The notes beneath the pieces were generated by a model, which worked only from the letters and a program-made list of their open reading frames with translations, searched no databases and was not told the DNA's origin. From Peronospora farinosa (lineage: Eukaryota; Oomycota; Peronosporomycetes; Peronosporales; Peronosporaceae), in the NCBI GenBank assembly GCA_947646735.1, contig CANTFK010000781.1:95754-159753 (forward strand): DNA of 64,000 nt. The letters run 5' to 3'. Numbering within the stretch: the stretch's first letter is position 1; the number at the start of each line of letters is the position of its first letter. Shown here piece by piece: positions 3,902 through 51,078 of this stretch. The translations under genes were made by a program, and so were the position numbers.

Positions 3902-5161
3902 ATGACGCCTTCTGGCACTGAGTCACAGACTCTACGGGACCTCATTAAAGGCGACCTTGACGAAGCGGTTGATTACGAAAGTGACACCGTCTTTGTGGGA
4001 CCCGATGGGTCCCCTTTATCCACCCTTACGGGTAAAGATGACAGCAATCATGCACCGAATCCTTTCCCTGAAGTGATGCTGCAGATGCGCTAACAGCGTT
4101 AAGTGACCCACCTGACGTATCGTCAACAGCGACGGTTACTTACCCACTCGACGAGCAGCAACAGCAGACTTCTACCAAGAGGAAGGCACCACGCGTGGGA
4201 CGAAGAATATGGCAAGGCTTCAGGGCCACCGACATTATGGGTTCAAGCCACCTACAGTGGAAGAACGCCTGAAGGAGGCATCTGGACATTACCTTTCTGG
4301 CTGGGCCATTGGGCCTGAGGCCATTTCACCCGAGGATGTCGCTACGCGAAAGGCCCTTCGACAACGCTATCTGGAACCCCATATCACTACGCAAAGCCAA
4401 TACTTGGCACGCCTCACTAGTCAAGTGCGCGGTGCACCAGTCCCTCCTCTAAAGGGTGTCCTCATCCTTCTGTTCGCGGGGGAAACTGAGGAGGAAAAAG
4501 ACGCGGCTTTTAGCCGCTGGGCGCATTATGCGCGACGTTTAAGCAGCATGTGGGCCCTACGGGCAAGTGCCGATGTGGCAGATGCTCGTCTCGAACGGAA
4601 AATGCGTTACGATTACGCTAAGTTGAAGGCCCGAGGAAAGTTGAAATCCCAACGAATGCAATATGCTTCTGCTACCCAGCACCCCAATGTTTCGGCTACT
4701 CCTTTAGCGGCGAGTCCACGACAGGCCGAGGCCGCTAACTCGCCTACCCTCACCACTACTGGTGAGAAGCGGCATCGACAACCGGTTGGCCCTGCGCACG
4801 ACGTTCAAAAACGTCCACGGCGTATGGACAATCCTGCCGAAGGGGAACCTCGAACTCCCATGAGTTCCACGACTCGGGATATCCCCGCCACTTCACCAGA
4901 TACTGGTTTTGATCGTGGCGACGACGCTTCTGCAGTAGACGATCCACATGGAACTGAAGATTTCCCTTCTCATCGATCAATGCCGGAGGCGACCGGTGTA
5001 TCGGCACAAGCTTATGCCGAGCTGCGTCAGGAGTTGAAGTGTCATTAGGAGATTGTGAAGACGATGCATTACATTCTCGAGTCGCTGGAACAGAGTCGAA
5101 CCCGAGTGGAGGGTCAACTTGACCTCTTGGTCCAAATGATACGTCCTGCGGCGTGCCGATG
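3902..5161 (+). pseudogene. E1 antisense accessory ORF (opposed to pol)
   Basis: The reading frame starts 110 bp inside the 3' LTR, on the strand opposite to gag-pol. Segments: 3902-4093 (acidic, DLDEAVDYESDT), a stretch in another frame to about 4205, then 4209-5048 (279 residues), then one stop followed by a short coiled coil ending near 5161. It runs acidic N-terminus, helical middle part (EEEKDAAFSRWAHYARRLSS), Ser/Pro/basic linker, C-terminal helix. The linker lies over the chromodomain coded on the other strand (4756-4990). E3 and E4 have frames with the same position and layout. I recognise no domain. Two frameshifts and a stop show that this copy is dead. Confidence 0.6.
4756..4990 (-). 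pseudogene. E1 integrase C-terminal chromodomain
   Basis: The minus strand encodes FHVDRLLQKRRRHDQNQYLV followed directly by KWRGYPESWNSWEF, a typical chromodomain core. Such domains direct Gypsy integrases to marked chromatin. The segment is in a different frame from the integrase body and lies entirely under the opposed ORF 4209-5048. Confidence 0.85.
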
Positions 5162-15805: not shown

Positions 15806-15825
15806 GGTACCGGTTAACCGGTACC
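15806..15825. repeat. Perfect 20-bp palindrome beside the E2 3' LTR
   Basis: GGTACCGGTTAACCGGTACC equals its own reverse complement. Its first half, with the preceding ACTCCCTTT, is repeated just outside the other LTR (26260-26277), where unrelated flank would be expected. Confidence 0.85.
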
Positions 15826-16117: not shown

Positions 16118-17879
16118 ATGTCTTCCCCTGGTTCTGACCGACCGTCTGCTTACCCACCGTCCGCTGATCCACCGTCTGAAGAGTCGCCGTCGCGCCTTCG
16201 GTTGCCTCTCCATATAGAGGGGTGTCCTTGACCGACCTTCCCGGGCCGGTGTCTTCGCCGTTGAGTGCTGCTGAAACTGTTGTCGTTCACAGCTCTCCTG
16301 TTTACACCGCTTTGCCTCCTGCCGAGACAGCAGATGCTCCTGTCACGCCGGCCCTCATGGTTGACCGTCCGTCTTCCGTACCCGTCAACGTACGGGCAGC
16401 TCTGCAGGAACTGCAAACTCTCGCGGACGCCCATTCCCGCCGCATCGAAGACTGCGAGGGTCGGATAGGTGTCCTTCCCCCTTCGGCCACCTTGTTGGAC
16501 ACTCGTTGTGAGCGGTTGGAGGAGACGTTGCGCGACAATTCTCGGCTGGTGGCCCAACTCCGCGAAGCTCTCCAGCGCGAGACTGCACTGGTGGACCGTC
16601 TGCGATGGAAGGTCGACCACATCCGAAGCCGGTACTCGCTTCTCGCCGCAGAGCTCGAACATGTCGACTTCTCTGACGGGCCACCTTCAGGACCAGCTAC
16701 TCCTTCGGCAGCTTCGCCCCCGGCCGTATGTTCCCCTTCGAGGCCGGCGAAAGCTCTTGGTAAACGGTCCCGGCGGCCGTCACCCCGGGTACCCGCCAAA
16801 GCCTCTAAGCTTCCGAGGCCTGACGCCTCTACGATACCACTGTCGGCGGTCTCTGGTGGTCGTTCTCCTGTCGTGCTTGAGTCTTCGGACGACGACCTCA
16901 GCGACGACAGCGAGACCCTTCGGGCGGCTCTGACCAAGTCTCGTTCTGCTAGTCGGCGCCCCGCCTGTACGTCTTCCGTCGACGTCCGCTCCTCCATCGA
17001 GGTCCACCTCGGCTACCGGCCTCTCGCTGAAACGGGCGATGTTCGGGACATCGGACTCGGAGACCGAGTCGTCTGCGGAGAAAGACAAGAGCGCGCCTAC
17101 TGTTGCGGACAACACTTCGCCCCCCTTCAGCCGACTTCAGCCTGCTTCCCAGAGACGCCATGATCCCCGGGTACATGCAGTCGAAGACCTTCTCCGCCGC
17201 GGTAGTGGCACCTTGGCCGGTCGACCTGGTCAATTCGTGGTGCATTGTTACAATGTCTTCCACAGACTTGGTCGACCAGCTGGATCCACCTTGGGGTTGG
17301 TTTGGCCCTCCGGACGGAAACCTCGACCGTCCCCCCAAATGGAAGAGGTCGTTGGTGAACCCTCCAATGATCCAGAGATTGCTGGCGACGGAACCTTGGG
17401 TGGAAGCTCGTGTTCCCATGCAACCCGTTTCCTTCCGACCTGTTGGCTGGTTCGCCCAGTTGGCGGCGGTTTACACCCAGTTTGACGAAGAGCATAGCCA
17501 AGCACTTTGGGAGGCGACCCGCTGCCTGTGGATCTCCAAGGACCAAGCGCGAGAGAACTCTTTCCTCGCGTCATATCAAAACGCGCGGAAGAAGCGTCGG
17601 AGTCGGGCGACTCGAGCGTGGCGGGAGGTGGTCGACTTTATCTTCGTTGAGATTAGCAAGGTCCGCTGCGATCTCGACATTTTCCTGGACCCTTTATTCC
17701 GTCATCTTCCTCGAACCCGCCGTGTAGTTTACTGGTACCCTGGTCGTGAGGAGGGATCGGACCCAGTCGACCTGCTCGAGGCCCTTCGGGTGTCGGATTC
17801 CGCGTGGCCGTGGCTTAGCCAAATATCGGTTGTCTTCCGTACCCCATCCTGGAGCTTTATTCCCACGCCTCAAGGGTAA
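16118..17879 (+). pseudogene. E2 antisense accessory ORF (opposed to pol)
   Basis: GC-rich plus-strand reading frame, in three frames: MSSPGSDRPSAYPPSADPPS at 16118, then 16222 to about 17100 (313-residue frame) and 17103-17879 (258 residues). The second part has a heptad-rich coiled coil (CERLEETLRDNSRLVAQLRE), then acidic Ser-rich stretches (ESSDDDLSDDSE). The last part is Trp-rich (DPPWGWFGPPDGNLD, TEPWVEARV, RATRAWREVVDFIF). No domain is recognised. TEPWVEAR resembles TEPWWRAR in the matching ORF of E4, hinting at common descent. Here it does not reach the chromodomain. Confidence 0.55.
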
Positions 17880-26259: not shown

Positions 26260-26277
26260 ACTCCCTTTGGTACCGGT

Positions 26278-29826: not shown

Positions 29827-29828
29827 CT

Positions 29829-29841
29829 TGGTAGCACTAGT
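29829..29841 (+). other. E3 primer-binding site
   Basis: TGGTAGCACTAGT two bases after the LTR; the first nine bases are shared with E1 and E4. Confidence 0.65.
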
Positions 29842-29885
29842 AGTCTTTCCCACGACCCATCTCTCTGAGCGTGCGTGTGGTTGAC

Positions 29886-30905: not shown

Positions 30906-31029
30906 CGTGCACGACGCACGGGTTCAGCACCTGCCCAAGATGGGTCGGGAAATGCGGGAGCGCAGTAGGGGCGGGATGCCCTACTGTCGCGGACTCAGAA
31001 GCTACCCCTAAGTTCAGAGTGATCGAACA

Positions 31030-33600
31030 AATGGGTAGCATAGTCCCTGAGATTCCGAAAGGTCGGACCTCAACCCTTTTGGTCTATAGCGCTCGAGTAC
31101 GAGGCTCACGACCAAGTGATGACTCTTCTCGTGGATTCGGGTGCATCACAAACTTTGTGAAACTCGCGGCTTTGAAAAAAGAGTCCGGCGAGTTTTGAGT
31201 CGCTTTGCCAGGATGGCAAGCGAGAAGAGGCGATCGTTCGTTTAGCGAACGGCGCGCTCGTTAAATCGGAGGGAGTTCAAGTTGAACTTGCCTTCAGCTT
31301 TAGTGGCTTCTCTTGTAAAGAGAAGTTTACACTGCTAGGTATGGAGAGTCCGTATGACTTCATCCTAGGCATGCCTTGGTTGGCTAAACACCAACCATGG
31401 ATAGACTGGCGTACACGCACAGTCGCTAGCTCTACGCAAGACACCGGAAAGGATGTGCTCTTGCGAGAGGTTTATGTGACTGATGCTGTGTCCAACACAG
31501 TCGAGGGTGCGATGACGGTATGTCAATCGACACCAGGAACTACCCAGCTCGAAAGGAGTGGTGTAGCTGGAAGTGCACTGGCAGAAAGCCAGGTGACACA
31601 TATTCCTACCCAGGTCGAAAAGACTAATGTAGTGAATGGGGCGATGACAGATAGTCATGCGTCCAATAGTCCTGCATAGAGCCGAGGGCCTGTGGCAGCT
31701 GATGGTGGGCTGACAGGAAGTCAAGCGCCACAAGAACCGGCACAGAGCCAAGAGCCTGGTGTGGTTGGAAGGAGTGCGTTAGCTGAGATAGCAACGACAC
31801 CTTCTTCCAGGTCAAAGGTCGTGGTGACTCGAAGAACGAGCACTAGATGTTTTAAGACGATCAAGGGCACGTCGAAACGAGTGACCCTTGGATCAGTCTC
31901 GGTACAAGAGGACGGACCTACGAACGAGTTGTTCGACGCCGTCGAAGACAAAATGCCGGAGGCATCCTCAGTTGAGGTGCTCCAACTTGTCTTGGCATCT
32001 GCCGAGGAGATAGTAAATCTCTCGGAGATGACGTGGGATCTGTTCCTGTCCGAACGAAAGGAAGGAAAGATCCACGAGATAGTCGCACCAGTTCCAGAAG
32101 AGAACGTGGTGGACTGTTTCTCTTCATCCACAATGGATGAGAGCGTCTTGGAGACCGACAAAAAGAAACGGTTCGCTGCTCAAGGCTGGGATGACTTGAA
32201 GGACAGCCCGTTCTATAATTTCTGTGGAAACACCGTGATGTGTTTCCAGCAGAAGTGCCGAGCCGCCTACCGGCCGATAGGGGCATCAGGCACGAAATTG
32301 ACCTGGAGCCTGGCACCAAGTATTGTGTGACCAGGCAATGGCCGTTGCCGAAGGAACAAGTCGATTACATTGATGAGTTTTTCGACAAGCGAGCCAAGGC
32401 AGAACATGTACGTGAGAGCAAGTCGCCTCACTGCTGCCCGACCTTCTGTGTGCGTAAAGACACGGGTGGATGGCGCGTGGTTCATGCTTATAATAAGCTG
32501 AACACGGCCACCATTCCAGCTCAAACGCCGATCCCGCGGAAAGATGTTTTGTTGAATTCCATTGGAAAGTCAACTATCTTTTCCGCGTTGGATCTGAAGG
32601 ATGGTTACTATCAGGTTCTCATGAGAGATACCGATGTAGCCAAAAAGGCAGTAATCACCCCAAGCGGTATGCTGTGGGAGTGGATTGTGATGCCACAAGG
32701 GTTGAAAAATGCTCCGGCAACATTCAACCGAGTAGTGGCTCACGTGATGCGTCAGCACCGCGCTTACGCGCCCCATTACCTTGACGATGTATTCGTGCAT
32801 AGTAGGGCGGAGGACGGTCTGAGCGCGATAGAATCTCACAAGCGTCATTTAGACGCTGTGTTGCAGACTCTGGGTGACGCCCAATTATACGTGAACTTGC
32901 AAAAGTGTGTATTAGGGGTCCCCGAGATATCTGTACTGGGCTGCATCGTAGGTGCACGTGGTGTACGAGCAGACCCATAAAAATGTAAAGGCTGTAAAGG
33001 AATGGCCAGTCCCACGACATGTGAAGGATCTGCGCCAATTCCTTGGGCTCGCTAATTACTTGCATAAGTACAGCAAGAATTATGCGGAGCAGACCAAGCC
33101 ATTGTCTGACCTTTTGAAAAAGGATGCAGAATGGACTTGGTCAAAGGAACAAAAAGATGCGTTCACATCAGTGAAGCAATCTCTTGTAGAGGCACCGGTC
33201 TTGGCATTGCCAGACGCGGATAAGCCCTTTAGCGTCGTCTGCGATGCAAGCAATTTTGCAATCGGCAGCGCGCTCATGCAGAAGGATGACAACGGTGTTG
33301 ACCGTGTCATATCTTATCAGTCTCGGCTTTTAAAAGCTGCCGAGCTGAATTACCCTGTGCATGACAAGGAGCTACTTTCAATTAAGTATGCCCTTGTGAA
33401 GTTTCGGGTGCACCTTTATGGCACCGAACCTTTTGTGGTTTTTACGGATCCCGCATCACTGCGGACCGCTATAAATTCACCGCACCTCTCGCCGAGAATG
33501 GCAAGATGGCTAACATTCTTCTCTGAATTTAATTTCAAAGTTGAATATAAGCCGGGTAAGTCGAATGGCTTGGCTGACGCGTTATCGCGCAGACCAGACT
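31030..33600 (+). pseudogene. E3 protease-reverse transcriptase-RNase H
   Basis: The protease site LLVDSGAS is present near 31128, but a frameshift follows. The second motif is FILGMPWLAKHQPWIDWRTR at 31359. RT (32240-32980) is well kept: RESKSPHCCPTFCVRKDTGG, YNKLNTATIPAQTPIPRKDV, LDLKDGYYQVLM and the catalytic YLDDVFVHS. RNase H (32952-33600) has FSVVCDASNFAIGSALMQKD and ADALSRRPDFE. A stop near 32980 and other breaks split the polyprotein. Confidence 0.9.
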
Positions 33601-34520
33601 TCGAGGCAAGACACCAGGAAAGTTTGTCTCGTGCGAAAGCACAAGGTGAGTCGTCAACACTGGCAGCCATGAAGGCCTACCATGTGACGAGCTCAATGGC
33701 CTCCGATATCAAGGAGTGTTACAGTCAGGACGAACATTGTCGCATGCTGTTGGATCATTTTGGTGGACGAAAAGTTACCCTTCCGTCGCACCTCAAAGCG
33801 AAACTAAATCGCTTTAGTTACAGTGATGGCCTGTTATGGTATCAACTGTCACCCTGTGATCCCTTGAGAATCTATGTCCCTCATGACACAAATCTCAAGC
33901 TGATGATACTTCACGTGTGCCATGATGCGCCATGAGGGGAGGGGCCCTCACTTCGCTCGGTGCGAATGCCAAAGAGGGCCAAGGTTGCCCTAGTGACACT
34001 GCTAATTTAGCAGTGGTCACGACACCTATAGGTGTCACAGAGGAGGCACGGCAAGAAATGCCAGTGCTCCTTGATGATGACACTATAGTGTTGTAAACAG
34101 CGTCGACCCATGAACGACCTCTTGGAGGCGTCATCGGCGAGCTGGATGCTAAAAGCGTGAGCGAAGCTCAGCGCTTGGTGGATGAGCGATTAGCCATCAC
34201 ACGTAAAGTCCGTGACGCGATGGCAAGCGCACAGGACAAGCTAAAACAATATGCAGACCAGAATGGTCGCAAAAACAATGAACACTTTAGTGTTGGGGAC
34301 AAAGTGCTATTGAGTACTGCTACCCTACCTAAACATGCAATTTCTGTACTACCTGGTGGTACTACTAAGCTATTGCCCCGATTCATTGGGCCCTTTACAG
34401 TGGTTGAAGAAGTTGAAGACCTAAATTATAGGCTCACTCTCCCACCGTATATGAAGACGCACCCCGTATTTTACGTGGGTCGTCTGAAACGGTATGTTGA
34501 TCCAGAATTGATCACATATC
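33601..34520 (+). pseudogene. E3 integrase with deleted catalytic core
   Basis: The zinc-finger start (RIYVPHDTNLKLMILHVCHD) ends at 33935. Code resumes at about 34145 with the C-terminal part (EAQRLVDERLAITRKVRDAM, KLLPRFIGPFTVVEEVEDLN, MKTHPVFYVGRLKRYVDPEL). The whole DD-E core, about 250 codons in E4, is absent. Confidence 0.85.
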
Positions 34521-34529
34521 CACATCGGT

Positions 34530-35939
34530 CTAACGATACCGATGGTGACGTCGACTGTGAGTCGAGCGTCGCGGCCGATCAGGCGACGAGGAAGCCGAGA
34601 GGCTCCCCCCCGTATACGAACGAGGCGATAGAGGACTCGGCGATCGAGGAGGACTCCGCGCTTGGCGCGGGTCTCTCATCACCAGTCGCTCTAGGATATT
34701 CAAACGGGTCTTCAGGCGGTCATACCCCTGACGGTCCCTCGTCCTCACATCGCGCAGATCCGAGGTCAGTCGCGAAACTTGACTCTCGAGATCTGTCACC
34801 TGCTCTTCAGCGCAGCGGACTCAGCCTGCGACTGAACAGCAGCAGGGTAGGCAGCCGCGAGTAGGTGGGCGTAATCGCCGCTCCTATCGGGCGCCACCTG
34901 TGTTGGTGGACACGGATGGGAACACGCGCTTCCTTGTTGGAAGGCTATTGACCCACCGGTTTGTGAAGCGAAAGCTCCAAATCCTTTTCTAGTGGAAAGG
35001 TTACCCAACGAGCTTTGACTCATGGAATCCTGTGGACGCTTTGCGAGTTGACGTGCCTGGGCTGGTGGATGCTTATGTGAAGCAGCACCAGCTGTCTTCT
35101 TTCTGCTAGGTCCGGAAGGACTAGCAGAAAAAGCATAGCGAGGATTGATTGGGGGTCGCTTACCACCCATTATTTCATGCGCACGCTTCATGGCGAAGCT
35201 GATTCGCTGCGAACGCTGTTTTGTTGCATCTACATGCAACGTTACACGGCGCCGAAGTTCAGCTTCATATTTGTCGGCTGTTTCGTTAGAACGCAGCACG
35301 ACTGGTATTGGGAAAGCACGACCAAGCGCTTTGCCCTGCTTTTTCCACAAGGGAAAGACGCTGTAAAACTTACGAGCGTCAATAGTTGCACGCTGCAAAA
35401 GCGTTGCACTAGACCCATCCGAGTTCATCTACTCAGATGGGGGTGGCATTGGTGGCAAGCCACCACTCACGTAGCCACCCTCGCGACGGCGGGCTAGTGA
35501 GGCCGACGGTGTACTTGGTGGAGCTTTAAGCTCACACTCAGCTGAGTCTGACTCTCCATTATGGATTGTCAAGACATCAGCTTGAGAAGTCACATCTCAC
35601 TGAGTCGCGACTACTCCTTTCGAAGTAGCGTGCTCAGTCTTAGTCGCTGCGCTCGTAGGCGCAGGAGACGAGGTTTTGCCTTCGAGCATAGATGCTCCCT
35701 CAAGGACGGGTGCCTCAAATGATGGGAACATATGTCCCATCAAAGCGCTTTGCTCATCGCCACTTTGGGGTGATGGCAATGGCGTAGTCTCATTGTAGTC
35801 TACAGTGAAATGGAAGATTCACCTCAGTGCCTGAAGCACTTTGCGACGGCTACGATAAATCGCGGCCCGTGCGCTTAGCGCTGGACTGCATAAGTGCCTT
35901 TGCAGGCGACCCATCAGCCTTACCACGTTTCGGTGGCAT
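34530..35939 (-). pseudogene. E3 antisense accessory ORF (opposed to pol)
   Basis: Starts with ATG at 35939, 106 bp inside the 3' LTR, on the strand opposite to gag-pol. It begins MPPKRGKADGSPAKALMQSS, then passes through stops and frame changes to 35428-34796 (210 residues: FYSVFPLWKKQGKALGR, RSQRISFAMKRAHEIMGG, a Ser/Lys/Pro linker). A further frame overlaps by GTGA at 34799 and gives a clear coiled coil (TDLESQVSRLTSDLRDVRTR) with an Arg/Ser tail. The linker lies over the chromodomain of the other strand. Layout as in E1 and E4; no known domain. Confidence 0.6.
34890..35090 (+). pseudogene. E3 chromodomain
   Basis: RFLVGRLLTHRFVKRKLQIL, then an in-frame TAG (34990-34992), then WKGYPTSFDSWNPVDALRVD: a chromodomain with one stop inside its core. 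It is fully overlapped by the opposed ORF. Confidence 0.78.
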
Positions 35940-36045
35940 GAGAATTGAGTAGATAAAGCGGCGCGTTATATAACGGCTTGCAAGTCACTCTGTCTCCTAG
36001 GCGATGTTTTACAAGATGTAAAAATCGTTTTAAAAGGAGGGATGG

Positions 36046-36513
36046 TGTAACGGGCTCAACCCGTTAAGTATGCGATACTTAACGGGCAGGTATCAAAAGG
36101 TACGTAAGTACTTAAGACCTGTCGCTCGGGTGAGACACACCATGTGTCACACCCTTGCGTATGTGATATACACTAGGTGTATTCACATTGATGGGGATGA
36201 CGCCCAGCTGGGACTAGGCGTCATCAAATGACGTCAGTCAGTTACGTCATTGAGCGAGCTTAAATATATTTAAGCTCGCACGTTGGGATGAGCATCTATA
36301 GAGATGGCACCCATCATTACATATTAACCAATCAGTAGTTAGATTTATATTTAGTTAAATTCTATTAAATATAAATCAGTCTTGAATTTACTTAAACAAA
36401 CGCACCACGCACGAGAAGTTGGAAAAGCTTCTGCGTAACGTCGGTGCCATCTTGTTAAGAAGTTCGTTGCACTCTCGCTTAAGCGAGAGGCAACTGTTGG
36501 TACGACTGCTTAA
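36046..36513 (+). repeat. E3 3' LTR, left part (split by E4)
   Basis: Matches 29226-29704 apart from an 11-bp indel and a few substitutions. The purine tract AAAAGGAGGGATGG (36032-36045) precedes it. It ends at CTTAA, the E4 target. Confidence 0.9.
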
Positions 36514-36968
36514 TGTAATGGGGCACCCTCCGACTATACTGATTACAGTATAGTCTACTTTCACTGATTACAGTGAAAGCAGGTGCCTCAATTACCTCAC
36601 GTACACGTGAGCAGAGGAAGGGAATCAACTATACAAACGCTTAGTTGAGAGGGAAAAGAAAACTGTATTTAATATAGTTAACTATCTATAAACTAATCTG
36701 TTATAACCTATGTTAACTATATTAAACTACAACTATGTGTGTTGACAACTTGCCCTCCACTCATTGCGCGCGTCCATCGATCATTGGTCAGCGCGTTGGT
36801 TGATATGATGGCCCATATCAACCAATGAGAGGGCATCTCCAACTTCAAGGAGATCTAGGAACAATATTATATGAAAAGATAATATTGTCAAATATTATTA
36901 GTAATAATATTATTTTATTGACACTTCATATAAGTGTCTATATTACGTAACGGGCTCACCCCGTTACA
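36514..36968 (-). repeat. E4 3' LTR
   Basis: TGTAATGGGG to CCCCGTTACA on the plus strand. Hairpins include 36532-36555 (10-bp stem) and 36558-36579 (9-bp stem). The polypurine tract is the minus-strand GAGGGGGAGGGTGA at 36969-36982. About 11 differences from the other LTR by hand count. Confidence 0.93.
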
Positions 36969-37512
36969 TCACCCTCCCCCTCAACCAACAGTCACATTAT
37001 TGACTGTTTAGTGACTATGGGAAAGGAGCACTTGTTGAATTTTCTTTCATTCAACAATCTTACGCTATGAATAATTCAATGCGCGTCGCTGCTAAGGCAG
37101 CTAAGAGCTCGGCTGCACGCCTGTCTGCAGCCGCTACTGAGGCTTCACAGCCTCAGCCAGCAGACACTAATGTGTCTGCTGGAAGTCAACATCATTCTGC
37201 AACGCCTGTTGCAGGTTCACGTAGCGCTTCGCCGCGTGAACATGTTGACCCAGAGTTAGTCGTTGACTACTCTGGTGAGTCGGATGACACATCCGACTCA
37301 AAGCCACCTGTGTCACTCCCGAGCTCTCCCCGGGGTGATGCCTCGTCGTCGAATGCTACGAAGAGGATCGTGGTACATTGAGTGAATCAATGTACCGTAA
37401 AATGTTCGGGTCGTCTGATGTATCAGACGAATCGCCAAACGAGTCGAAGGATAGTGACTCGGGTGGGGACCGTAAGGGTGATGTCAGTGCTTCTACTGAC
37501 ATCAATGCTCAT

Positions 37513-37606
37513 AGTGTCGGTACTTCTGTGGACACTAATGCTCGTGGTGTCGGTACTTCTGTGGACACTAATGCTCGTGGTGTCGGTACTTCTGTTGACA
37601 CCACGC
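37513..37606 (+). repeat. 33-bp tandem repeat within the E4 opposed ORF
   Basis: About three in-frame copies coding VGTSVDTNARG. The nucleotide copies are almost identical, so the expansion is recent. Confidence 0.85.
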
Positions 37607-38239
37607 AGGAGGATTTAGACCGCAACGTATTGCGTCTTGCTCCTGATCGCAAGCCATGGATGCTACCTAAGCATCTGCTTGATCGTTGGTCTGGAAAGAC
37701 CAACGAACGGTTCTCCATACCGTTGTTTGATGCGTCAAAGCTTCATGGCCTTGACGCCAGTGCGAAGAACTTTCGCACTGAGAACGATATTACATCGATG
37801 TGTTCCTTGAACATCGATGGTATCGTCCACACAAGAAGCGTGAGGCTGACGCGTTCCTCCAATCTTGGAACGCGTTTATCACCAACGTTTTAAACGTTGG
37901 GAAAGAGGCTTGGTTTCAAAAACTGTTTGCTAGCCGCAATAAGTTTGAGAAACGCAGTACGTCCGGTGCATGCTATCGTTTGCACCGGTTATCTAGAGAG
38001 GCAGGCCTGTTATGCCTCTCTTGGGGCGACCCATGCCCGGGGTGCCTGAGCACCTCGTCAAGAGCGCCTAAGGAGGCGTACCTCCTTACTGAGCCCTGGT
38101 GGAGGGCTCGCATCTCTTCTGAGATGCGTGAAGGGATTGCTACTTTGCAATCCCTTTACGAGCGCGCTGGGCGCTCGTTTTCCGATGGTCCTTCACCATC
38201 GGGTGTCCCTTGTCGTACTGTTCGACAAGGCCGGGAACG

Positions 38240-38370
38240 TCGGCCATCAGTTGAGCCCGAGGTTCCCAGCTATCCGCCGAAGGCGGATAGCCACGCCACC
38301 GACAAGATAACTCGTCCGACGTCCCTTCACCTCGCGGTGCTTTAGTAAGCGTTCCACGAGAAAGCGCTTC
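38240..38370 (-). pseudogene. E4 chromodomain
   Basis: KRFLVERLLKHREVKGRRTS and then YLV in one frame, CRWRGYPPSADSWEPR in the next: a chromodomain with one frameshift, at the hairpin 38271-38289. It is overlapped on the plus strand by the opposed ORF. Confidence 0.75.
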
Positions 38371-38745
38371 CCACCATGGGAGTCCACCAGCAGATGCGGT
38401 GGTGGAGGGAAAACCCTGTCCGATTCTTTCATCGGACTTGGCTGCTGAGTTAGACGGGTTTGCCCGTGTAACTCGTGAGCTCCGTTGTGATGTTGATCAC
38501 GAACGGGATAAGCGTCGCCGCTTAGAGGACATTGTGCGACAGCTTGGGTTTGACCATGAGAAGTCTCGGGCGAACAATGCTGTCGCACTATTGGAGAATG
38601 AGCGGCGACTTCATTCTCTGAGTAACGAGCTGGCGACAGCTCGTCAGGAGATCGTCCAATATCATGGGAGGATCTCATCTCTACACGACCAGGTATCGAA
38701 TCTGGTTCGTGACAATTATAATCTAAAGGGGATTTTTAGACTAAT

Positions 38746-40200
38746 GGCTATCTTCGTCGTTCAAAGAAGCCGCGTACTGAACGGACGGACGAAGACGTCC
38801 CACGTAAAACGTAGGATGCGTACTCATCCTGCGTGGCAACTCGATCGTGTATGCGTTGCCTAGGCGGCGCAATACACGAATCGGGCCGATGTACTTGGGC
38901 AACAATTTATTGCTGCCCACGTTAGTCACTACATGTTTAGGTAGGTTTACTGTTGACAGTAAAACTAAATCACCTTCAATAAATGTTTGAGCATTTGCCC
39001 TTCCATTATTGTCTGCGTTTCGCTTTTGCATATCCACCGCTTCCGCGATGGAGTCTTGCACGAAACGGACTACCGCTTCACGAGTCAGCAGGAAATCCTC
39101 AGCTGACTCGTTGCTTTTGGCTGCAGTGCATTGTGAGTGCACCGCAGAGATATCGGTTACTTATTCATCGAGAACAATACTGTTCTCACTTCTGATACCT
39201 CGAACGATGCTGATATCTTCAGCATCGTTATCAATAAGAGCGTCATCGCTCTTAATTTCTTCCTCTTCACCGAAGTCGAATGGTACGACTTCGGTTACTT
39301 TCTCGACCATAACGTCGTCGCGTGATGAGCAAGAGCCAGATTGGTTCTCGCTCGAGCGAGTCCCTCCCCCTTAAATTAGAGTCATCTTCTACTAAGGTGG
39401 GGACACGTGGATGGCGAAGGCCATTCACGTAGAACGGTGTATGCGTCGTGGACGCATGCACGGAGTTGTTGATGGCGAATTCGACCATCGACAAGAACTC
39501 ACTCCAACTCGTAAACGAGTGGACGTACCCTCGAAGAATCTCTTCGAGGACGCGATTGGCGCGTTCAGTCTGACCATCAGTTTCTGGATGGTCAGAAGTA
39601 GACATTGTGAGCCGTGAACCGGGGGTCCCTATCGGACACAAGTTCACGGGGTAAACCGTGCAATCGAAAGATTGTATCGATAAACACTCGAGCACAGCCC
39701 TCTGCTGTGATCGACTCAGGTACAGCAACAAGATGTACCATCTTGCTGAACCTGTCTACAAACACGAGAATACCATTATTCCCGTGAGCGTCTTTGGGAA
39801 ACCCAAAGACGAAGTCCATTGATACGGACTCCCAACACTCTGCCGGAACAGGTAGAGGCTGCAATGGTGCACGGAGTGAAGGACTAGGCTTCACTCGTTG
39901 ACACACCTCGCAAGCACGCACGTACTTGCGCACAAACTTATACTGATGTGGCCAGTAAAAGTCGCGATTGACCGTGAGGTAAGTCTTCTCACGGCCGCGA
40001 TGCCCACTTATTGGTGCATCGTGACATTCAAACATGATCCGTAACCTGAGATCATGTTGTGGCGGTACAACGACACGAGGCGTGTCGTTGTTGACGGCTG
40101 TGTAGTACAGTAAGCCGTCCCGCTGGGTATATCGATCTAGAGAAGATCGATACATGGCAGGCAAGCGCTTCTTAGCTTGCGTGGATGGGTCCTTGAGGTA
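38746..40200 (-). pseudogene. E4 integrase
   Basis: Zinc finger (CHDAPISGHRGREKT, CEVCQRVKPSPSL), first two catalytic acids (MDFVFGFPKDAHGNNG, SDRDPRFT) in the frame ending at 39592. After a frameshift, DHPETDGQTERANRVLEEIL holds the third. The barrel (NKLLPKYIGPIRVLRRLGNA, THPTFYVGRLRP) is in 39142-38741. Confidence 0.9.
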
Positions 40201-41710
40201 CACCATCAGGCGTACAAGATCATTATCTTGTGCGCATGCCATTCTAATGTCGTCGAGTAAGCTCGACGACAAGACGCTGGTACTCAGCGTGGCGACAGTG
40301 GTGTTCACATCACTGTCGGATTGCACAGTCGGCTCTAGGTCAGGCCGACGTGAGAGGGCATCAACGACGACGTTAAGTCGTCCCGGCTTATACTCCACGG
40401 AGAAGTTGTACTCCGCGAATAATGACAACCATCTCGCCATACGTTGCGAGAGGTGTGGACTGTTTACAGCCGTGCGTAGTGACGCATGGTCTTTATACAC
40501 AATGAACGGTCTATCTCCTAAGAGATAGACGCGAAACTTAGCCAGTGCATACTTCATGGAAAGGAGTTACTTTTCATGCACCGGGTAATTGCACTCAGCC
40601 GGTTGCAGCTGACGCGATAAATAACAGACGACACGCTCGGCGCCGTCTGTATCATATTGCTGCGCAGCCGATTGCAAAATCACTGGCGTCACAGACCACA
40701 TGAAATGGTCTGTCTTGATCGGCAATCGCCAATACTGGTGATTGCATCAAGCTTTGCTTGATACGTTCAAAGGAACGCTGACAGTCAGCGTTCCAATTCC
40801 ACTTTACATTTTTCTTTAGTAAACAAGAAAGATGTATTGTCATTTCGGCGTAATTGTGCGAGTACTTGTTCAATTACGCCGCTAGCCCAAGAAACTTCCT
40901 TAGTCCCTTGACATCGACTGGAATGGCAAGTCGGTGATCGCCTTGATCTTTTCTGGATCAGGGCGTACGCCGTTCTTTCCGACGATGCACCCAAGAAGCG
41001 GTATTTCGCTAGCTGTGAATATACACTTCTTGAGGTTGGCGTACGACTTATGCTCTCGCATAAGTGTAAGAACCTTACGGACGTGGAGTCTATGGACTTC
41101 CACGGCTTTTTTTCCGTCCATAGCTCGACTATGGACGAACACATCATCGAAGTAACTCGGTGCGAATTCGCGCACCGGTATCAATAGATGTGAAACACAT
41201 CTATTGAATGTGGCTGGTGCATTACTAAGCCCTTGCGGCATCACCAACCATTCCCAGAGCATACCACTGGGAGTGCTCACTGCTGTGTACGGGATGTCTC
41301 GTTCACGCATTAGGATCTGATAGAAACCATCCATCAGATCCATGGACGAAAAAATGGTACTCTTAGACATACCATCTATGATTACGTCCTTTCTCGGTAT
41401 CGGCGTTTGCGCCGGTATCGTTGCAGCGTTCAACTTATTGAACGCTTGCACTATCCGCCACCCTCCTGTGGCCTTGCGCACACAGAAAGTCGGAGAGCTG
41501 TGAGGTGAAGTTGACTCCCTCACATGGCCCGCTGCTAGGCGATCGGCAAAGAACTTGTCGATCGCCTCGACCTGTTCCCGAGGCAGTGGCCACACAATAT
41601 TTTGTGCCAGGAACAAGGTCGATCTCGTGTCGAGTACCTTTATCCTTAGGTAACTCGCACGGAACGGATTCAGGGAATACATCCTTGAATTCGACCAAAT
41701 CCTTGTACAA
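40201..41710 (-). pseudogene. E4 reverse transcriptase-RNase H
   Basis: RT 41682-40900 is almost whole: RESTSPHSSPTFCVRKATGG, IPAQTPIPRKDV, MDLMDGFYQILM, MPQGLSNAPATFN and the catalytic SYFDDVFVHS. Past a frame break come the thumb and RNase H (VCDASDFAIGCAA, DHASLRTAVNSPHLSQRMAR, VVDALSRRPDLE). Confidence 0.92.
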
Positions 41711-41721
41711 AAAATTTGACT

Positions 41722-42871
41722 TCAGTGACTCCCAGGATTGCGATGTATATCGCTCAATCCGAGTCTTTTCATCAAGGACACTTTCATCATTGATGAGCTG
41801 CTGAGAAACCGTTCGTTCTCGGCAAAAACTGTTGCTGACCGAATGTGAGTCATGTACTCGTCTTCTGCGACGAGCACACAGATCTGCTTGACTTTTCCAC
41901 TACGCAGACCACGCAAGAACCTTTTAGGTTCTAGCGTAGGCAACGGAGTTATCTCTGAAGTTAATTTCGGAGGCGCGATCAGATCAAGCGTATAAGCGCC
42001 TACGTTTGATCTATCATTAACCAAGACGCTCAACGTCTCGGTTACTTCCTGGGGACTTATTCCCACAGGCTCGATGGAACTTGTTCCATCGACTTCCTCT
42101 AGCTGTGGTGGCGCAACCACAGCGAGATCCTCTACGATCAACTCTCCAGTTGATCTAGGATTACCGAGTTGCCGCTTCTGGGCAACCGGTTTACTCTTCG
42201 GTGAATGCTGCCCTCTAGGCGAGCATTCATGTCCCAGTCCACTCGAATTAATTTAAGTGGTGAACCTTCGGCGCTGCCTGTGCTTGTGCACAGCCGCCGG
42301 CAGCTTGCTCCACAGCGTGACTGTCTGTCACGCTGAGTTCTTGTGCAGTCGTACTAACGACCGAACCACAAGTGAGGCCATCACACTCACTCGTTGTACA
42401 TTCACACGCTTGTGAACGCTCCAAGACGTTCATCAGATGACCATCTGATGAACAAGCGGCAGGCATCTTCATGGTTCGATGCTGCCAGCTGACCCATGAC
42501 TCGTACCTTCTGAGCCATGGTAATCCTAGGATGACATCATATTTGTCATTCAGGTCAAGTACGATGAAATCATCATCGTACTTTTTGCCTTCAAGCGTGT
42601 AGTGAATTCCCACTACACGTTTCTTTACTGTTACGGATGCGCTAGTTGCAAGGCGCACCGTCATCCTCGTTGGAGGGGTCTCACGCTCAACATATTTGAG
42701 CCTACGATCATCTAGCGATTGGCGTCGAACAAAGTTGTTCGAAGCCCCACAATCAACTAGGGCGCGAAGTGACATTTTCTTTGTCACTTTGATCTTCAAT
42801 GTGATGAGGGATACCTCATCACTGGGAGCGGCAACACACAGTGACTGTGTGTTGGGAGCAACCTTCGTCAA
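41722..42871 (-). pseudogene. E4 protease and linker
   Basis: RALVDCGASNNFVRRQSLDD: the active site reads DCG instead of DSG or DTG. The aspartate is kept, but Ser-to-Cys is unusual. The second motif DVILGLPWLRRYESWVSWQH is intact. A frame change near 42248 precedes an acidic linker (42141-41722). Confidence 0.85.
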
Positions 42872-42921
42872 GAGTCCCGCGAACTCTCTTGACGTTGCTG
42901 GATCAGTAGGGCGCTCCGCCC

Positions 42922-44137
42922 CTACTGACCCCGACCGTTTTTTGATGGTCCACCACGTTGTTGCGATTTCGCAGCAACGTGGGACCCACGTCTCTGGCCC
43001 TTCTTGGCAGACGGTCGATCGTCACTCCCAGTGTTACGAGACACTGGGCGTGAGGCACTACACTCATAAGCGTAGTGGCCCAACTTCTGACAGCGATTGC
43101 ACTTTTGCAATCGCTTGTACCCTGGAGAGCGAGGTCGCTCGCTCTCTACATAGGAGAGGTCCATTGGTTTTGGACCTCCGCCCTCCTGTCGTCTCGGTGG
43201 ACGATAGGATCCCGAGTGGACGTGAGCCTGTTGTAGGATAAAGTCCTCCTGTTCCGCTGCAGAGATCGCTTGATCCAGCGATTCTAGTTCCAAGCGGAAC
43301 AGGTGGGTCTTGACAGGACCATCTATCAGACCCTTGATTAACACAGTAACCTGCGTTTGTTCATCGATTGGGTTCAGTACGATACAGCTAACGAGGTATC
43401 GTACGTGTTGGGCTTAAGCGTGTATATCACGCTTACCCTGTTTCAAATCCAGGATCTCAGCCCGAGCCCTGAATTCGGCGCGAGGCGGTTCAAACGTGTG
43501 TTTGAGCCGCGCCTTGAAGACGTCATACGTTGGGAAAATGTATGGGTCGTGCGGTTTGAGCCCTAAGGCCCAAGCTTTCCCACGTCCTGCCAAGTTCGAC
43601 ATGGCGAACTTGACCTTCATCGCATCGTCATCGATGCGACGAGCCTCAATGGCATCGTCGAGCTCGACGAACCATCTCAACAAGGAGTCGCTTTCGACTG
43701 CCTTGTACTAGGAGACATCAATCTTCAAGGACTCGGGTCGACGTGTATACGTCGCCCGGCAGCAACAGCACTAGCCTGCTGTTGTCTCAACAGTTCAGAC
43801 TGTTAAGCACCCTGCTGCATCAACAAGTCAGATTGTTGAGCGCCTTGTTCTCTCAACAGTTCAACCTGTTGAGAACCTTGCTCCTCTAGCAAGGTGAGTT
43901 TCTTTACGACTTCGTCAAGTTCATGTTGTATGAACTTGGCGATGGTTGCATGTTGGTCGTCTCCGCTAAGAGAGAGCAACAAGCACCAACGACAAGATTG
44001 CCGATGGTTTCAGCCATAATCTGAACTGCATTCCATTCGAGGTCACTCAAATGGCGGAAATCATCACGCGTTGCGTGATGACGTTCATCACCCGCTGATT
44101 CCATAGCGGATGGTGCGGTGGTCGCTGAACGGACCAC
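42922..44137 (-). pseudogene. E4 gag
   Basis: N-terminal frame 44137-43904 (DFRHLSDLEWNAVQIMAETI), then a repeated helix (LLREQGAQQSDLLMQQGA) at 43780-43900 with stops, capsid part 43683-43414 (MKVKFAMSNLAGRGKAWALG, FEPPRAEFRARAEILDLKQG) and 43344-42922 with one CCHC knuckle, CNRCQKLGHYAYEC. Confidence 0.85.
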
Positions 44138-44149
44138 GAAGTGCTACCA
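44137..44149 (-). other. E4 primer-binding site
   Basis: The minus strand reads TGGTAGCACTTCG, two bases inside the 5' LTR; the core TGGTAGCAC is shared with E1 and E3. Confidence 0.65.
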
Positions 44150-44151
44150 GG

Positions 44152-44607
44152 TGTAATGGGGCACCCTCCGACTATACTGATAACAGTATAGTCTACCTTT
44201 ACTGATGACAGTGAAAGCAGGTGCCTCAATTACCTCACGTACACGTGAGCAGAGGAAGGGAATCAACTAAACAAACGCTTAGTTGAGAGGGAAAAGAAAA
44301 CTGTATTTAATATAGTTAACTATCTATAAACTAATCTGTTATAACCTATGTTAACTATATTAAACTACAACTATGTGTGTTGACAACTTGCCCTCCACTC
44401 ATTGCGCGCGTCCATCGGTCATTGGTCAGCGCGTTGGTTGATATGATGGCCCATATCAACCAATGAGAGGGCATCTCCAACTTCAAGGAGATCTAGGAAC
44501 AATATTATATGAAAAGATAATACTGTCAAATATTATTAGTTATAATAATATTTTTATTGACACTTCATATAAGTGTCTATATTATGTAACGGGCTTACCC
44601 CGTTACA
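44152..44607 (-). repeat. E4 5' LTR
   Basis: Partner of 36514-36968. Some differences lie in hairpin loops or arms, such as GATTAC to GATAAC in the loop of the first hairpin. Confidence 0.93.
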
Positions 44608-44612
44608 CTTAA

Positions 44613-44734
44613 GCAGTCGACCAACCTCCCAATCACCCTCGCACGCGAAGGTAAGACGGTCTAACCGCTTCCTCGCTTGTGCATAAGGTGTGTGCTCGTA
44701 GTACGAGGCAACTTCGTAGAAGTGCCCTTCTACA
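44613..44734 (+). repeat. E3 3' LTR, right part
   Basis: Continues 36046-36513; matches 29705-29826 with a few substitutions and ends CCTTCTACA before ATAGG. Confidence 0.9.
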
Positions 44735-44739
44735 ATAGG

Positions 44740-44930
44740 AGAAGGGATCTGTAGTGGCGTGGATCCCATGCGTTTTTAAGAATCAGTCGTACTTAGTTAA
44801 AAATACAAACAAATATATATAAAATCAGAGTTGAAATTTACCTTGAGCGCACTAGTTATTTGCGCGCTCTCTTACGCTTCCTCGTAAGACTTATAGTGTG
44901 TGTAAGTAACGGAGCTCTAGCCCCGCTACA
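44740..44930 (+). repeat. E5 3' LTR, right part
   Basis: Aligns with 11562-11609 and 12862-13001 of the left LTR and shows the ancestral site of the Helitron-like insert. It ends GCCCCGCTACA. Confidence 0.85.
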
Positions 44931-45311
44931 CATCAAAAAGCGATGATGAGTTCAATTCAAGGTTGCCCTAGTAGTTTTTGTATGTGGCCGTAGTTTTAAC
45001 GTCTATGGCCATAGCATTCTATAGGAATAAACCTACCCTTAGTACCCTACACGAAATTAATTACTGTAACAGTAACCGTAATGATCAATTTATAATATGC
45101 AGGCTTCTGCATTGGATGACAAACATCTGCGTATGATGTACTTAGCACGGGTGATATCGATTATCAAACCATAACCGATATGGTACGGCTTGACCGACAC
45201 CATGCCTTAACGCCCACACTTAATACCTCGTTAAAGGCTATACAATATCTATGGCTTACAACCGTGACGTCATGCTCAATATAATTATCCAGCGTTGCGT
45301 AACCCCTTACA
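44931..45311 (-). mobile_element. E7: E1-family fragment (pol scrap plus partial LTR)
   Basis: 44931-44975 resembles E1 at 8010-8050. 45012-45311 matches the inner half of the E1 LTR (TAGTACCCTACAC, ATATGCAG, TGTATGATGTACTTAG-like blocks) in the same orientation and ends CCCCTTACA. It marks the right border of the nest. Confidence 0.7.
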
Positions 45312-45900
45312 AGTATAGTTTACTTTTTTCTACCTACTTTGCAACAAGTGCAACAACTACACCAACTTTCTACGAATATCAAGAAAAAAGGCTGCTTCGT
45401 GTCATGCTGACAGTTAAAGATGGACATGGTTCTAGAGAATCAATGTCTAAGATGAATATTTTAAGGCCTATTTCTGGGACGTGACACTTTGCCCATGATG
45501 AAGGCCACTGTGATGCTGCCACTACCATATGTCCCAAAGCGACACGACATTTACACACGTTGAATTCGGTTTTTCAGTTGTTAGTTTCGCTTGCGATCCA
45601 GTCTTTGACGGACACGTGAAGAAGCAGTCAATGACAAGAGGTGAAATTAATCGGCCACGCTGTATTGACTCGAACCGACTTGAGCCTTTAAGAAGAGATT
45701 GCTAACAGTATTTTTTAGGTCTTCTACACGTTGGCAAGACCAGAAACTTGTTTCTAGATCTCTAGAGATCTATTACTAATCCCTCCGTTATTGGAAGGTA
45801 AGCATAGCATACACTGAATGCAGGAAATGATCTCAGCTTTTCATCAAAACACCAGTGCTTCCTTCTTCATAGACGTTGGCAAGGTGTTTTCGTTTATGAG
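45312..45900. other. Intergenic, 3' of the NRPS gene
   Basis: No gene is visible. A 77-codon plus-strand frame (45251-45484) starts in the E7 LTR and is not credible. It probably holds the NRPS 3' untranslated region. Confidence 0.5.
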
Positions 45901-48900
45901 TCATTCAAAGGTTCTAAGACCCATTAATGCCAGTCTTGTACGGTGTCGGATCTGCCGAGAAATGAGGTTAACAGCGGGATGGCGCAACATTGTGAAATGG
46001 GTGCAATTCGGTATGATAGCCACAATTGTAATGTCAATGCCAAGTGATCGATACTTTGAAACGTCTGCTTGCCAGTGCTGAGTCATGTACAGATCAGCAT
46101 GAAGCCAAATGGATGGGTCAGATTTGGAGCAAGTTGTCTTCATTTCAGCACCCGTGTATGGTTCATAGGTATCTTCCATCGAACAAAATTTACGATAGGT
46201 GACCCCCAATGACCGTAATAGCGAGTCACTGAAGGCTTCGGTGACATACTCGTCAATCTGGATCTGAGCCGCTGCTTTTTGTGCCTTGGTCATTTGCTGC
46301 TGAGCAGATGGCATTTCGAAAGGAAGTCCATCTATCAGAATGACGGACAAAATCGTGTGTCCATCATGAACTGCTAATCGTGCTACCTCATGGGCTACCC
46401 GACAGCCAAATGAGAACCCGCCAAAAGCATAGGGACCTACACTTTGCCGTTCACGAATAATGTCCCAGTACATTTTTGCTAGTTCTTCCACGTTGGATGG
46501 TTGAGCTTTGGTTGACTGGAGGTTATCATCTAGAAATGCAGCTGCTTGTACACCAATGACAGGATATGGCAGATGCCGTGCCAACTCCAACAATTTCCAG
46601 ACAGTGCCCACTGCGTCATGGAATAAGAAAAGTGTCGGCATTGCGGCAGACGACGTCGTCGAGGGCCAATTGAGTGGAACCAGTGTCTCTGAGGTCCATT
46701 CTCGCAAATTCACCATGGAGTCTGCTGCGGTCTTTGCCATTTCACAAAGTGATGATGAGCGAAAGAATTGCTCGAGAGCAAGTGGTAATCCTCGTGCTTG
46801 TGCAAGAGCAATAGCTCGAATAGCTGTCAGAGAATCACCACCCAGTTCAAAGAAGGATCGAGACATTAATCGTTTCTCACGCTGGTCGATGTCAATATCT
46901 TCGTCATCGTCGAGGTGGTCAATTCCGAGAGCTTGCATCCAAACCTGACGCAAGATGTCCGTAGCTAATTGCACGGTGATAGCGATCCCATTGCTGGTAT
47001 CGTGCGTATGTTCTCCACTATTGTCCGAGTTAGTATCAGCCCAAGTTGCAAGTGTACGAAGATCGATTTTCCCATTCGGTGTGCGTGGCCAGCAACTCAC
47101 AGCTTGAATTGTTCGAGGCACCATATGAATCGGAAGGTGTTGATGAAGATACAAGTGCAGCTTTTCTGGAATCTCTCCTCCACTAATTTGGTTGTTCAAG
47201 TTGTCGGCCAGCATAACGAAGGCGACAAGAGTTAAGGAGTTTTGTTGCCGCATCCGACCAGCAGATTTTAAATGGGGAATAGCAAGTACCTCAGCGGCCT
47301 TAACAGTTGAGTGGCGCAGCAAAACAGAGCGTATTTCTTGCAATTCAATACGCATGCCATGGTGTTTTACTTGTGCATCCGTTCGTCCGAGAAAAACTAG
47401 ATCACCGCTTGGCAACCACTTGACCAAGTCCCCTGTCTTGTACCATCGCCATTCGCAGCTCTGCGCTAGAGACGAAATCTGCTCGAGATCCTTGTGGAGA
47501 ATGAATGCGTTCTCAGTCAGGTCCGGACGATTCCAATACCCTTGCGCAACACCTGCTCCACCAATGTACAGTTCGCCGTGAACATTAACCGGAACGAGTC
47601 GTCTTTGTGTATCGAGCACAATCACTGGATGATCGTCAATAGGTTTTCCGATTGGTACGCTTTGCAATCCACGAAGTATGCTGGCTTTCTTGTGTAATGC
47701 TAGTTCTCGAGGCAGCTGGAAAGCCGTAGTTGTGATCGACGCCTCGGTCGGTCCGTACTCGTTGACAAGACATGTCGTGCTTTCTTTGAACTTTCTGTAA
47801 AACTGGCGAGCCAATTCAATAGGAAAAACCTCGCCGGCGAGTACGACGTGTTTGATCGAAGCGGGAAATGAATCACCTCGATCGCTTAGAAAATTTACGA
47901 GCAACGCAAAATATGAAGGCACGAACACGCAAAACGTCACGTGTGGTTCGTTAGTAAGCACGTTTCGCATGTAGTGTAACTCGTGTAAACCCTTTGGTCG
48001 AGTGATTCGAGTGCTTCCTCCAACGAACAAAGGCGAGAAGAGCTGGGACAACGAGCCGTCCAAAGTCGTTGATGTGCTTTGGAGAAACACGTCAGATTGT
48101 GTCACCGCGTAGGTTCGCACAGTCCACCAGAGAGTCGTCAATAAAGCAGCGTGAGAGACCACTACACCTTTTGAATTGCCTGTTGACTACGAAAAGCATA
48201 CATACAGCAGAATGTGCCGGTCAGCAAATGAAGAGAGAGAACATGCCAGACATGGACTTACCCCAGACGTGTAAAGGATGTACGCCATTGCTGTGTGAGA
48301 ATCTCGTGGTTTTCGTGCTAGCAGTTGTGTGTTCTTATTCAGATGCCTGTGATCACTAGCAAAAGCTTTCAGCATAAAGGCCACATCTTCGTAGCACAAA
48401 ATGTGCTGTGAACGATCGTCGCCGTGTTCTGAATCCCTTGCCGATATATACGTTGCAATCTTCTCATGTTTTCGTTGTGTGATGATCACTTGAAGACCAC
48501 TGTCACGGGCCATAAAGCGCAGACGCTCGCGTGGATATTCCGGGTCAAGCGGTACAAACACTGCATTTAGACGCAGTATTCCTACCATTGCTGCTACATT
48601 TTCCATTCCTCTATCCAGTAACAATCCAATATGAAGTTCCGCACAACTGCCAGAAATGTCAAGCATACATAGCGCATCTTTGATGCGCCCACTATAGTTC
48701 CACAAGTCTTGGTATGTCCACTGCGTGCCTTCGAAGTGAAGTGCAGTATTACGTGGAGTTTTCTGCACTTGGGAAAACAAACATTCGTCTAAAAATTCGG
48801 GCTTCGGTATTGCAGTGGCATTGAGTGCTCTATGCGGCTTTGGCGTTCCCCATGTGGAGACAAGCTGGTTCCATTCGAGATCAGAAAGCATAGAAATAGC

Positions 48901-50778: not shown

Positions 50779-51078
50779 GTAGGTCGACTATCGAAAGAAG
50801 TAAAATGAATGGCCACAATTCACGGATTGAGATGTTCTAGCACGGAGTTTTCATTCCTCTATGAGATTCTTTGGCTCGTCTAATGGACTCTGTGACTTTA
50901 ATGTGAACTTGAAAGTGCCACGTACAGTTCCAGGCCAAGTATCTCTGCTAGATGCATTCTTGCTTCCTTCAGCTCTAAATCTTCATGATAACTGGGAAGA
51001 CATCCATTTGAGTTCATGGTTGTCATGTCAATTATGATACCGTTCATGTACGTATTGCTTCATTCATTCTGGTCTTCC
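50779..51078. other. Gap between the ASPM-like and NRPS genes
   Basis: About 300 bp between two same-strand genes. It should hold the NRPS promoter and the 3' end of the upstream gene. No motif stands out. Confidence 0.4.

Follow-up and report, generated by a model that had tools for sequence, protein, structure and literature searches.

In the genome-scale ordered RNA structure (GORS) of RNA viruses, consecutive stem-loops run through coding sequence, the folding energy lies far above that of shuffled sequences, and relatives have few pairings in common although they retain the amount of structure, as set out in PMC3950689. The top folding excess among vertebrate RNA viruses is 23.4%, and hepatitis C virus reaches 7.5–10.7%, by the figures given in PMC7642675. 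The genomic RNA of yeast Ty3, itself a Ty3/Gypsy genome, has local structure, also around the frameshift site (PMC11381356, in its account of the RNA). Plant Ty3/Gypsy elements such as Grande, RIRE2 and Retand carry an antisense open reading frame (ORF) between pol and the 3′ long terminal repeat (LTR), according to PMC7264820. Perfect short palindromes would also be produced by template-switch correction of quasi-palindromes, as outlined in PMC7202029. Here we describe E4, a Ty3/Gypsy LTR retrotransposon in a 64,000-nt stretch of Peronospora farinosa DNA (hereafter the window; assembly GCA_947646735.1, contig CANTFK010000781.1, positions 95,754 to 159,753). E4 is tiled from end to end with short perfect hairpins, and its sequence has probably been selected for self-folding along its entire length.

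E4 resembles GORS in the three respects named above, yet falls outside its definition, since it is an LTR retrotransposon and not a single-stranded RNA virus genome. It also differs in that its folding excess is about 42%, almost double the published vertebrate-virus maximum as obtained by similar but not identical methods (PMC7642675), its hairpins are short and nearly perfect in Watson-Crick pairing, its two strands are alike, and G-U pairs are not favoured. In yeast Ty3 the well-folded core makes up 19.4% of the RNA, and the account in PMC11381356 that we draw on describes no tiling by perfect hairpins. The opposed proteins of E4 and its relatives are of oomycete type without detected relation to those of the plant elements, for which the relevant part of PMC7264820 mentions no hairpin tiling. 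Unlike the template-switch products treated in PMC7202029, E4 lacks a one-arm signature and a mutational bias, both of which were tested. The open-licence literature, judged from listings and with most subscription papers outside its scope, yielded no description of a retrotransposon tiled with hairpins. With E4, GORS-type structure would reach beyond RNA viruses and into the LTR retrotransposons.

An earlier note, made from the letters of the window, had listed 18 stems in E4 and put the number of at least 8 bp above 30, against about one expected. All 18 are exact, several of them extending one or two pairs further. With loops of 3–10 nt, E4 holds 80 stems of at least 8 bp, against a mean of 0.9 in 30 dinucleotide shuffles (standard deviation 0.9, maximum 3); 49 stems reach at least 9 bp and 25 at least 10 bp, against 0.0 and 0. 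Dinucleotide shuffles were used for the stem counts of E4 and host genes and for folding energies, and mononucleotide shuffles for the fold-enrichments of families and for the excess by exact stem length, which rises from 2.2-fold at 5 bp to 6.9 at 7, 41 at 8 and 160 at 9. Loops of 4, 5 and 6 nt are the commonest among the stems of at least 8 bp (21, 14 and 11 stems), and the arms of stems of at least 7 bp (loop 1–10) occupy 21.7% of E4. Stems of at least 8 bp reach a density of 11–15 per kb in the LTRs and in the region of the opposed ORF; in pol it is 6.9 per kb. The whole window contains 136 maximal perfect inverted repeats (stem at least 8, loop 0–10); these number 4 to 15 per 1-kb bin in E4 and 0 or 1 at 45001–64000. 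Host genes were said not to show such hairpins by eye, and they are near chance (4 stems of at least 8 bp in 12.9 kb against 1.8). The same had been said of pol in element E1, into which E4 is inserted; E1 does have them, as its interior is folded and has 17 stems of at least 7 bp against 2.5 in shuffles.

Codon usage does not reproduce the hairpins. In 200 codon-preserving shuffles for each of eight E4 reading frames, the stems of at least 8 bp exceeded the largest shuffle in seven frames, including all three frames tested in the opposed gene; the opposed frame 37782–38342, for instance, has 12 against 0.24. The eighth frame, without an excess, is the C-terminal piece of the integrase. Protein code and self-complementarity thus coexist on both strands, as had been proposed. 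A codon-phase test found the hairpins of E4 spread as 20, 14 and 20 over the three pairing phases. Chance, base composition, codon usage or an assembly artefact has practically no prospect as an explanation, being contradicted by the dinucleotide and codon shuffles and by the recurrence of the hairpins at 29 of 30 reverse-transcriptase loci.

Predicted folding energies give the same picture. When 350-nt fragments are each compared with 10 dinucleotide shuffles, the folding of E4 exceeds that of the shuffles by 42.5% on the sense and 41.9% on the antisense strand; the corresponding figures are 24.0% and 30.6% for E1 and 9.9% and 12.6% for the window element at 3.7–10.2 kb. On the sense strand, the opposed regions of two related Gypsy families, B and C, give 11.1% and 8.2%, the 18–25 kb window element 0.4%, and host genes −0.4%. 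In 200-nt windows with 20 dinucleotide shuffles the values are 41.5% and 46.1% for E4, with z below −2 in 39/40 and 40/40 windows on its two strands, 22.9% and 29.0% for E1, 10.5% and 15.5% for B, and 7.4% and 10.5% for C; one Copia piece gives −0.9%, one non-LTR piece −2.0%, and host genes 0.3% and 3.9%. G-U pairs make up 6.4% and 6.2% of the predicted structures on the two strands of E4, against 12.6% in host genes. E1 (window 29250–36058) is thus strongly structured, at 24–31% beyond shuffles, with fewer long perfect stems than E4.

Other copies of E4 retain the hairpins; their absence there would have spoken against the earlier observation. At least 40 near-full-length LTR matches at 94% or above (E4's own two included) and three partial ones at 76–81% were found, 40 of 644 first-look candidates being scored. 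Stems of at least 8 bp occur at 6.5–9.8 per kb at the 29 reverse-transcriptase loci (E4's own among them), at 3.9 per kb at the remaining one, L048, and at 2.3 to 11.9 per kb at the LTR-end loci, host flanks included. Hairpins are also enriched in related Gypsy families, for the most part at different positions. At five loci from such families (L061–L065), with 66–72% amino-acid identity in reverse transcriptase, there are 9–14 stems of at least 8 bp per 4 kb. The ratio of observed to shuffled stems of at least 7 bp is 31 in E4, 13 in B, 11 in C, 6.8 in E1, 3.9 in the 3.7–10.2 kb element and 2.9 in the 18–25 kb element. Pieces of Copia elements, non-LTR elements and host genes lie close to chance level or a little over it, with ratios of 4.3, 2.7 and 3.6 in three Copia pieces (3, 2 and 3 stems), 0 and 2.5 in two non-LTR pieces (0 and 2 stems) and 2.1 in host genes (11 against 5.3). 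A scan of viral contigs with the reverse transcriptase found no relatives.

Identity between families B and C is about 65%, and each is 11–13-fold enriched, yet only 5 hairpins are common to them, among 20 (B) and 12 (C) alignable, which is the GORS-like turnover of pairings; the hairpins have therefore mostly been rebuilt at new places. An undirected change of 30% would spare about 1.9 of 80 stems. One of the five common hairpins is changed on both arms, from T-A to C-G; in the frame of the reverse-transcriptase block, the change is synonymous on one side (TCT to TCC, Ser) and a conservative replacement on the other (AAG to AGG, Lys to Arg).

The variants among E4 copies were compared at 31 of the 35 aligned reverse-transcriptase loci (L048, L058, L066 and L069 excluded), for arm and loop columns, hairpin effects, turnover and frequency alike. 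Of the 57 variants present in at least 4 of the 31 copies, 10 worsen hairpins where 20.5 would be expected (permutation 0.004; Fisher test relative to singletons 0.009); in a 28-copy set that also excludes L067, L068 and L070, 6 of 43 do so where 15.4 would be expected (permutation 0.0015; Fisher 0.007). Other thresholds in the 31-copy set give permutation values of 0.034 (at least 3 copies), 0.0035 (at least 5) and 0.012 (at least 6), with Fisher values of 0.18, 0.010 and 0.035 respectively. We read this scarcity of hairpin-breaking variants at higher frequency as purifying selection in lineages still copying themselves. Singletons, summed by effect size, are also somewhat less damaging than random (P 0.01). 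Loops are freer than arms: among loop columns 18 of 289 carry common variants (at least 4 copies), among arm columns 8 of 872.

Selection for self-folding is likely, and we infer that RNA folding is the selected trait. E4 would belong to a Ty3/Gypsy lineage in which point changes on either arm are retained if they extend a hairpin locally and are prone to loss if they disrupt one. As selection would act wherever a hairpin lies, hairpin density would be maintained while single hairpins are transient, and because the pairs are Watson-Crick, the sense genomic RNA and the antisense strand would fold about equally. Several observations weigh against this account. The frequency test has 57 variants, with protein constraint included, and at a threshold of at least 3 copies its Fisher value is 0.18. 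Common variants are almost as frequent in arms as in non-hairpin columns (8/872 against 35/2514). Doubly changed Watson-Crick pairs number 3–4 against 1.1–2.4 expected in four B–C comparisons and are about as frequent as expected between E4 and B. On the sense strand G-U is no commoner than A-C, unlike what selection on sense RNA only would lead one to expect.

Compensatory change, which the earlier note had proposed as a check, is almost absent within the E4 family and rare between families. In seven older or divergent copies the hairpins have simply decayed, and the two doubly changed Watson-Crick pairs among them (one each in L058 and L048) are not convincing; between families, a slight excess is seen in B against C only.

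Alternatively, selection could act on the sense genomic RNA only, with hairpins serving as dispersed binding sites or folding the genome for Gag particles. The sense RNA does fold 42.5% beyond shuffles, and the hairpins span the whole of E4, LTRs included. However, the 80 loops show no enriched 3-mer or 4-mer, the top 3-mer occurring in 11 of 80, where the 95% maximum under the null is 12. Selection on the sense RNA alone should make G-U more acceptable than A-C on the sense strand; helices with one such pair number 37 and 33 when no conservation filter is applied, and 5 and 17 among family-fixed pairs. We consider this explanation unlikely.

Selection on DNA, through hairpins of the minus-strand cDNA in its single-stranded state or through cruciforms of the duplex, would suit both the Watson-Crick perfection of the stems and the same family-fixed imperfect pairs of E4 read on the antisense strand, where G-T outnumbers A-C by 17 to 5 (p 0.017; one LTR hairpin counted twice). 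The bias nevertheless depends on the threshold (p 0.02, 0.09 and 0.14 at three others), and helix ends have none (GT 11, AC 14). A comparison with other copies gives 16 and 7 (p 0.093), with L001, L002, L031 (E4's own), B and C excluded, matches under 150 bp or 88% identity dropped, and 886 positions at a depth under 5. Pooling four families gives 25 and 9 (p 0.009; overlaps not removed). The asymmetry is thus suggestive and threshold-dependent. Copia elements also produce cDNA, and they are unstructured (folding computed for one piece). Selection at the DNA level is accordingly rather improbable. We conclude from the predicted folding that both E4 strands are structured, and the wobble pairs give a weak hint that the antisense strand matters, as antisense RNA or minus-strand cDNA; the antisense RNA would be the mRNA of the opposed gene.

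The hairpins might also arise without selection, if template switching by reverse transcriptase in imperfect palindromes rewrites one arm or fixes single mismatches. Perfect Watson-Crick stems and equality of the strands are what DNA copying would produce, and non-LTR elements and host genes are without such hairpins. Three Copia pieces, from LTR elements as well, are however unstructured or have just 2–3 stems of at least 7 bp each. Between-family changes hit both arms and are never significantly one-sided, the probability of the asymmetry by chance ranging from 0.29 to 0.996 in eight comparisons with at least 5 hairpins (hairpins with local identity under 0.6 or arm gaps excluded); block a of this comparison carries little weight because several rows are misaligned by frameshifts. 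Nor are hairpin-improving variants in excess of the same base changes at random places. Among 1123 single-copy variants, 85 improve hairpins (80.5 expected) and 386 worsen them (405.9 expected), so that hairpins are broken about 4.5 times as often as built; among 305 shared variants the numbers are 25 (23.0) and 103 (111.8). Singletons may be mostly post-insertion, and rare reverse-transcription events could escape notice. Such a drive, which the earlier note had offered first, now seems quite improbable. Its second suggestion, read as a selected self-structured nucleic acid, is supported by the folding energy, by the mostly different hairpin positions in related families and by the depletion of hairpin-breaking variants at higher frequency; its third, resistance to RNA silencing, would be compatible with these observations.

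Self-folding may let E4 transcripts avoid recognition, or pairing with small RNAs and with one another, a role that has been put forward for GORS; by this analogy a shield against silencing is, tentatively, the likeliest use. More speculatively, both strands may be locally self-complementary so that the sense genome and the antisense transcript (or cDNA) fold before they anneal, a guard against duplex formation and silencing; it is equally speculative that such a guard would be reached by Watson-Crick-perfect tiling and not by a protein. Stems of 8–12 bp are short for Dicer. Three published statements lend the shield indirect support: in mammalian cells, viral transcripts with structure evade innate recognition (PMC3950689); along Gypsy elements in P. 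infestans lie small RNAs of both polarities (PMC3522703); and formation of double-stranded RNA has been suggested for the antisense transcripts of Gypsy elements with antisense ORFs (PMC7264820). Two observations tell against a shield: maize hairpin regions have more small RNAs, in the data cited from PMC10760457, and the 18–25 kb Gypsy element has an opposed ORF and no structure. Whether pervasive structure shields against RNA silencing is a long-standing question, and it becomes testable here since the Gypsy elements of one genome form a gradient from 0.4% to 42%.

Features of E4 and related opposed ORFs (window positions unless a locus is given; stems are of at least 8 bp)
Feature	Position	Strand	Basis
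E4, Ty3/Gypsy LTR retrotransposon	36514..44607	−	80 stems against 0.9; Pfam domains; LTR pair
5′ LTR, 456 bp	44152..44607	−	97.4% identity to 36514–36968; 5 stems
3′ LTR, 455 bp	36514..36968	−	partner of 44152..44607; 7 stems
Target-site duplication CTTAA, left	36509..36513	.	junction sequence; inside 3′ LTR of E1
Target-site duplication CTTAA, right	44608..44612	.	junction sequence
Putative primer binding site	44131..44149	−	begins TGG; 2 nt inside 5′ LTR
Putative polypurine tract	36969..36985	−	adjoins 3′ LTR
gag frame, end part	42925..43413	−	zinc knuckle slightly under Pfam cut-off; 5 stems against 0.05 (codon shuffles)
Protease frame	42251..43021	−	RVP_2, Peptidase_A2B; 8 stems against 0.30 (codon shuffles)
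Reverse transcriptase frame	40903..41721	−	RVT_1 1.3e-24; 4 stems against 0.18 (codon shuffles)
RNase H and integrase frame	39595..40566	−	RT_RNaseH, Integrase_H2C2, rve; 8 stems against 0.14 (codon shuffles)
Integrase C-terminal piece	38744..39160	−	SH3_Tf2-1; 0 stems against 0.20 (codon shuffles), no hairpin excess
Opposed (antisense) gene	37004..38860	+	overlapping open frames, 125–190 aa each in E4 copy
Gag-pol junction hairpin	42904..42927	−	CAGTAGG...CCTACTG, covers gag stop; found in other Gypsy families too
Example hairpin, stem 12, loop 2	42428..42453	.	exact match
Example hairpin, stem 11, loop 4	37157..37182	.	exact match
Opposed ORF, window	34796..35428	−	integrase to 3′ LTR
Opposed ORF, window	4209..5048	+	integrase to 3′ LTR
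Opposed ORF, window	16180..17160	+	integrase to 3′ LTR
Opposed ORF, L080	715..1818	−	integrase to 3′ LTR
Opposed ORF, L081	1021..2433	+	integrase to 3′ LTR

E4 is assigned to Ty3/Gypsy because Pfam recognises protease, reverse transcriptase, RNase H, integrase and SH3_Tf2-1 in it; the order of the first four, together with the LTRs and the target-site duplication, is that of Ty3/Gypsy elements. The insertion lies within the 3′ LTR of E1. We take 44131–44149 to be the primer binding site and 36969–36985 the polypurine tract, the tRNA pairing of the one and the role of the other being judged by general knowledge. An Rfam search of window 29000–45000 gave no match above the gathering score, the one sub-threshold match being mir-33 (E 0.35, 22.5 against 50 bits).

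The opposed gene of E4 lies between integrase and 3′ LTR, and with E4 included, opposed ORFs occupy this position in six Gypsy elements or families. Outside E4 their lengths are 368 aa in B and 471 aa in C (both between stops), 210 aa in E1, and 279 and 327 aa in two other window elements. The opposed protein of B matches that of C (E 3.6e-12), and that of E4 at best weakly resembles C's (E 0.5); four pieces of the E4 gene gave no Pfam family above its cut-off. Twenty homologues of the C protein were found, catalogued as hypothetical proteins of Phytophthora and Peronospora; all 17 named ones belong to Phytophthora species or to Peronospora destructor, and the top one, of P. destructor, has 59% identity. 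An opposed ORF was also considered as a sufficient cause of structure and rejected, because the 18–25 kb element has one and a folding excess of 0.4%.

At the gag-pol junction, positions 42943–42937 on the minus strand of E4 read A AAA AAC in the frame of gag, and the junction hairpin follows after 9 nt. The stretch 42943–42904 probably signals a −1 frameshift from gag into pol, a reading that presumes what is generally known of such signals. At L062 the A-run and its spacing to the hairpin are identical to those of E4. The hairpin is also present in E1, the 3.2–10.9 kb window element, L061 and L064; E1 and the 3.2–10.9 kb element lack this A-run just upstream of it.

Elsewhere in the window, a third Gypsy element is marked by LTR-like repeats at 14542–15814 and 25172–26277, which are 95% identical and contain internal tandem repeats; its 18–25 kb part has no excess of structure. 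A host gene resembling a nonribosomal peptide synthetase lies at 45901–50778 on the minus strand in two frames, with condensation, AMP-binding, PP-binding and thioesterase domains.

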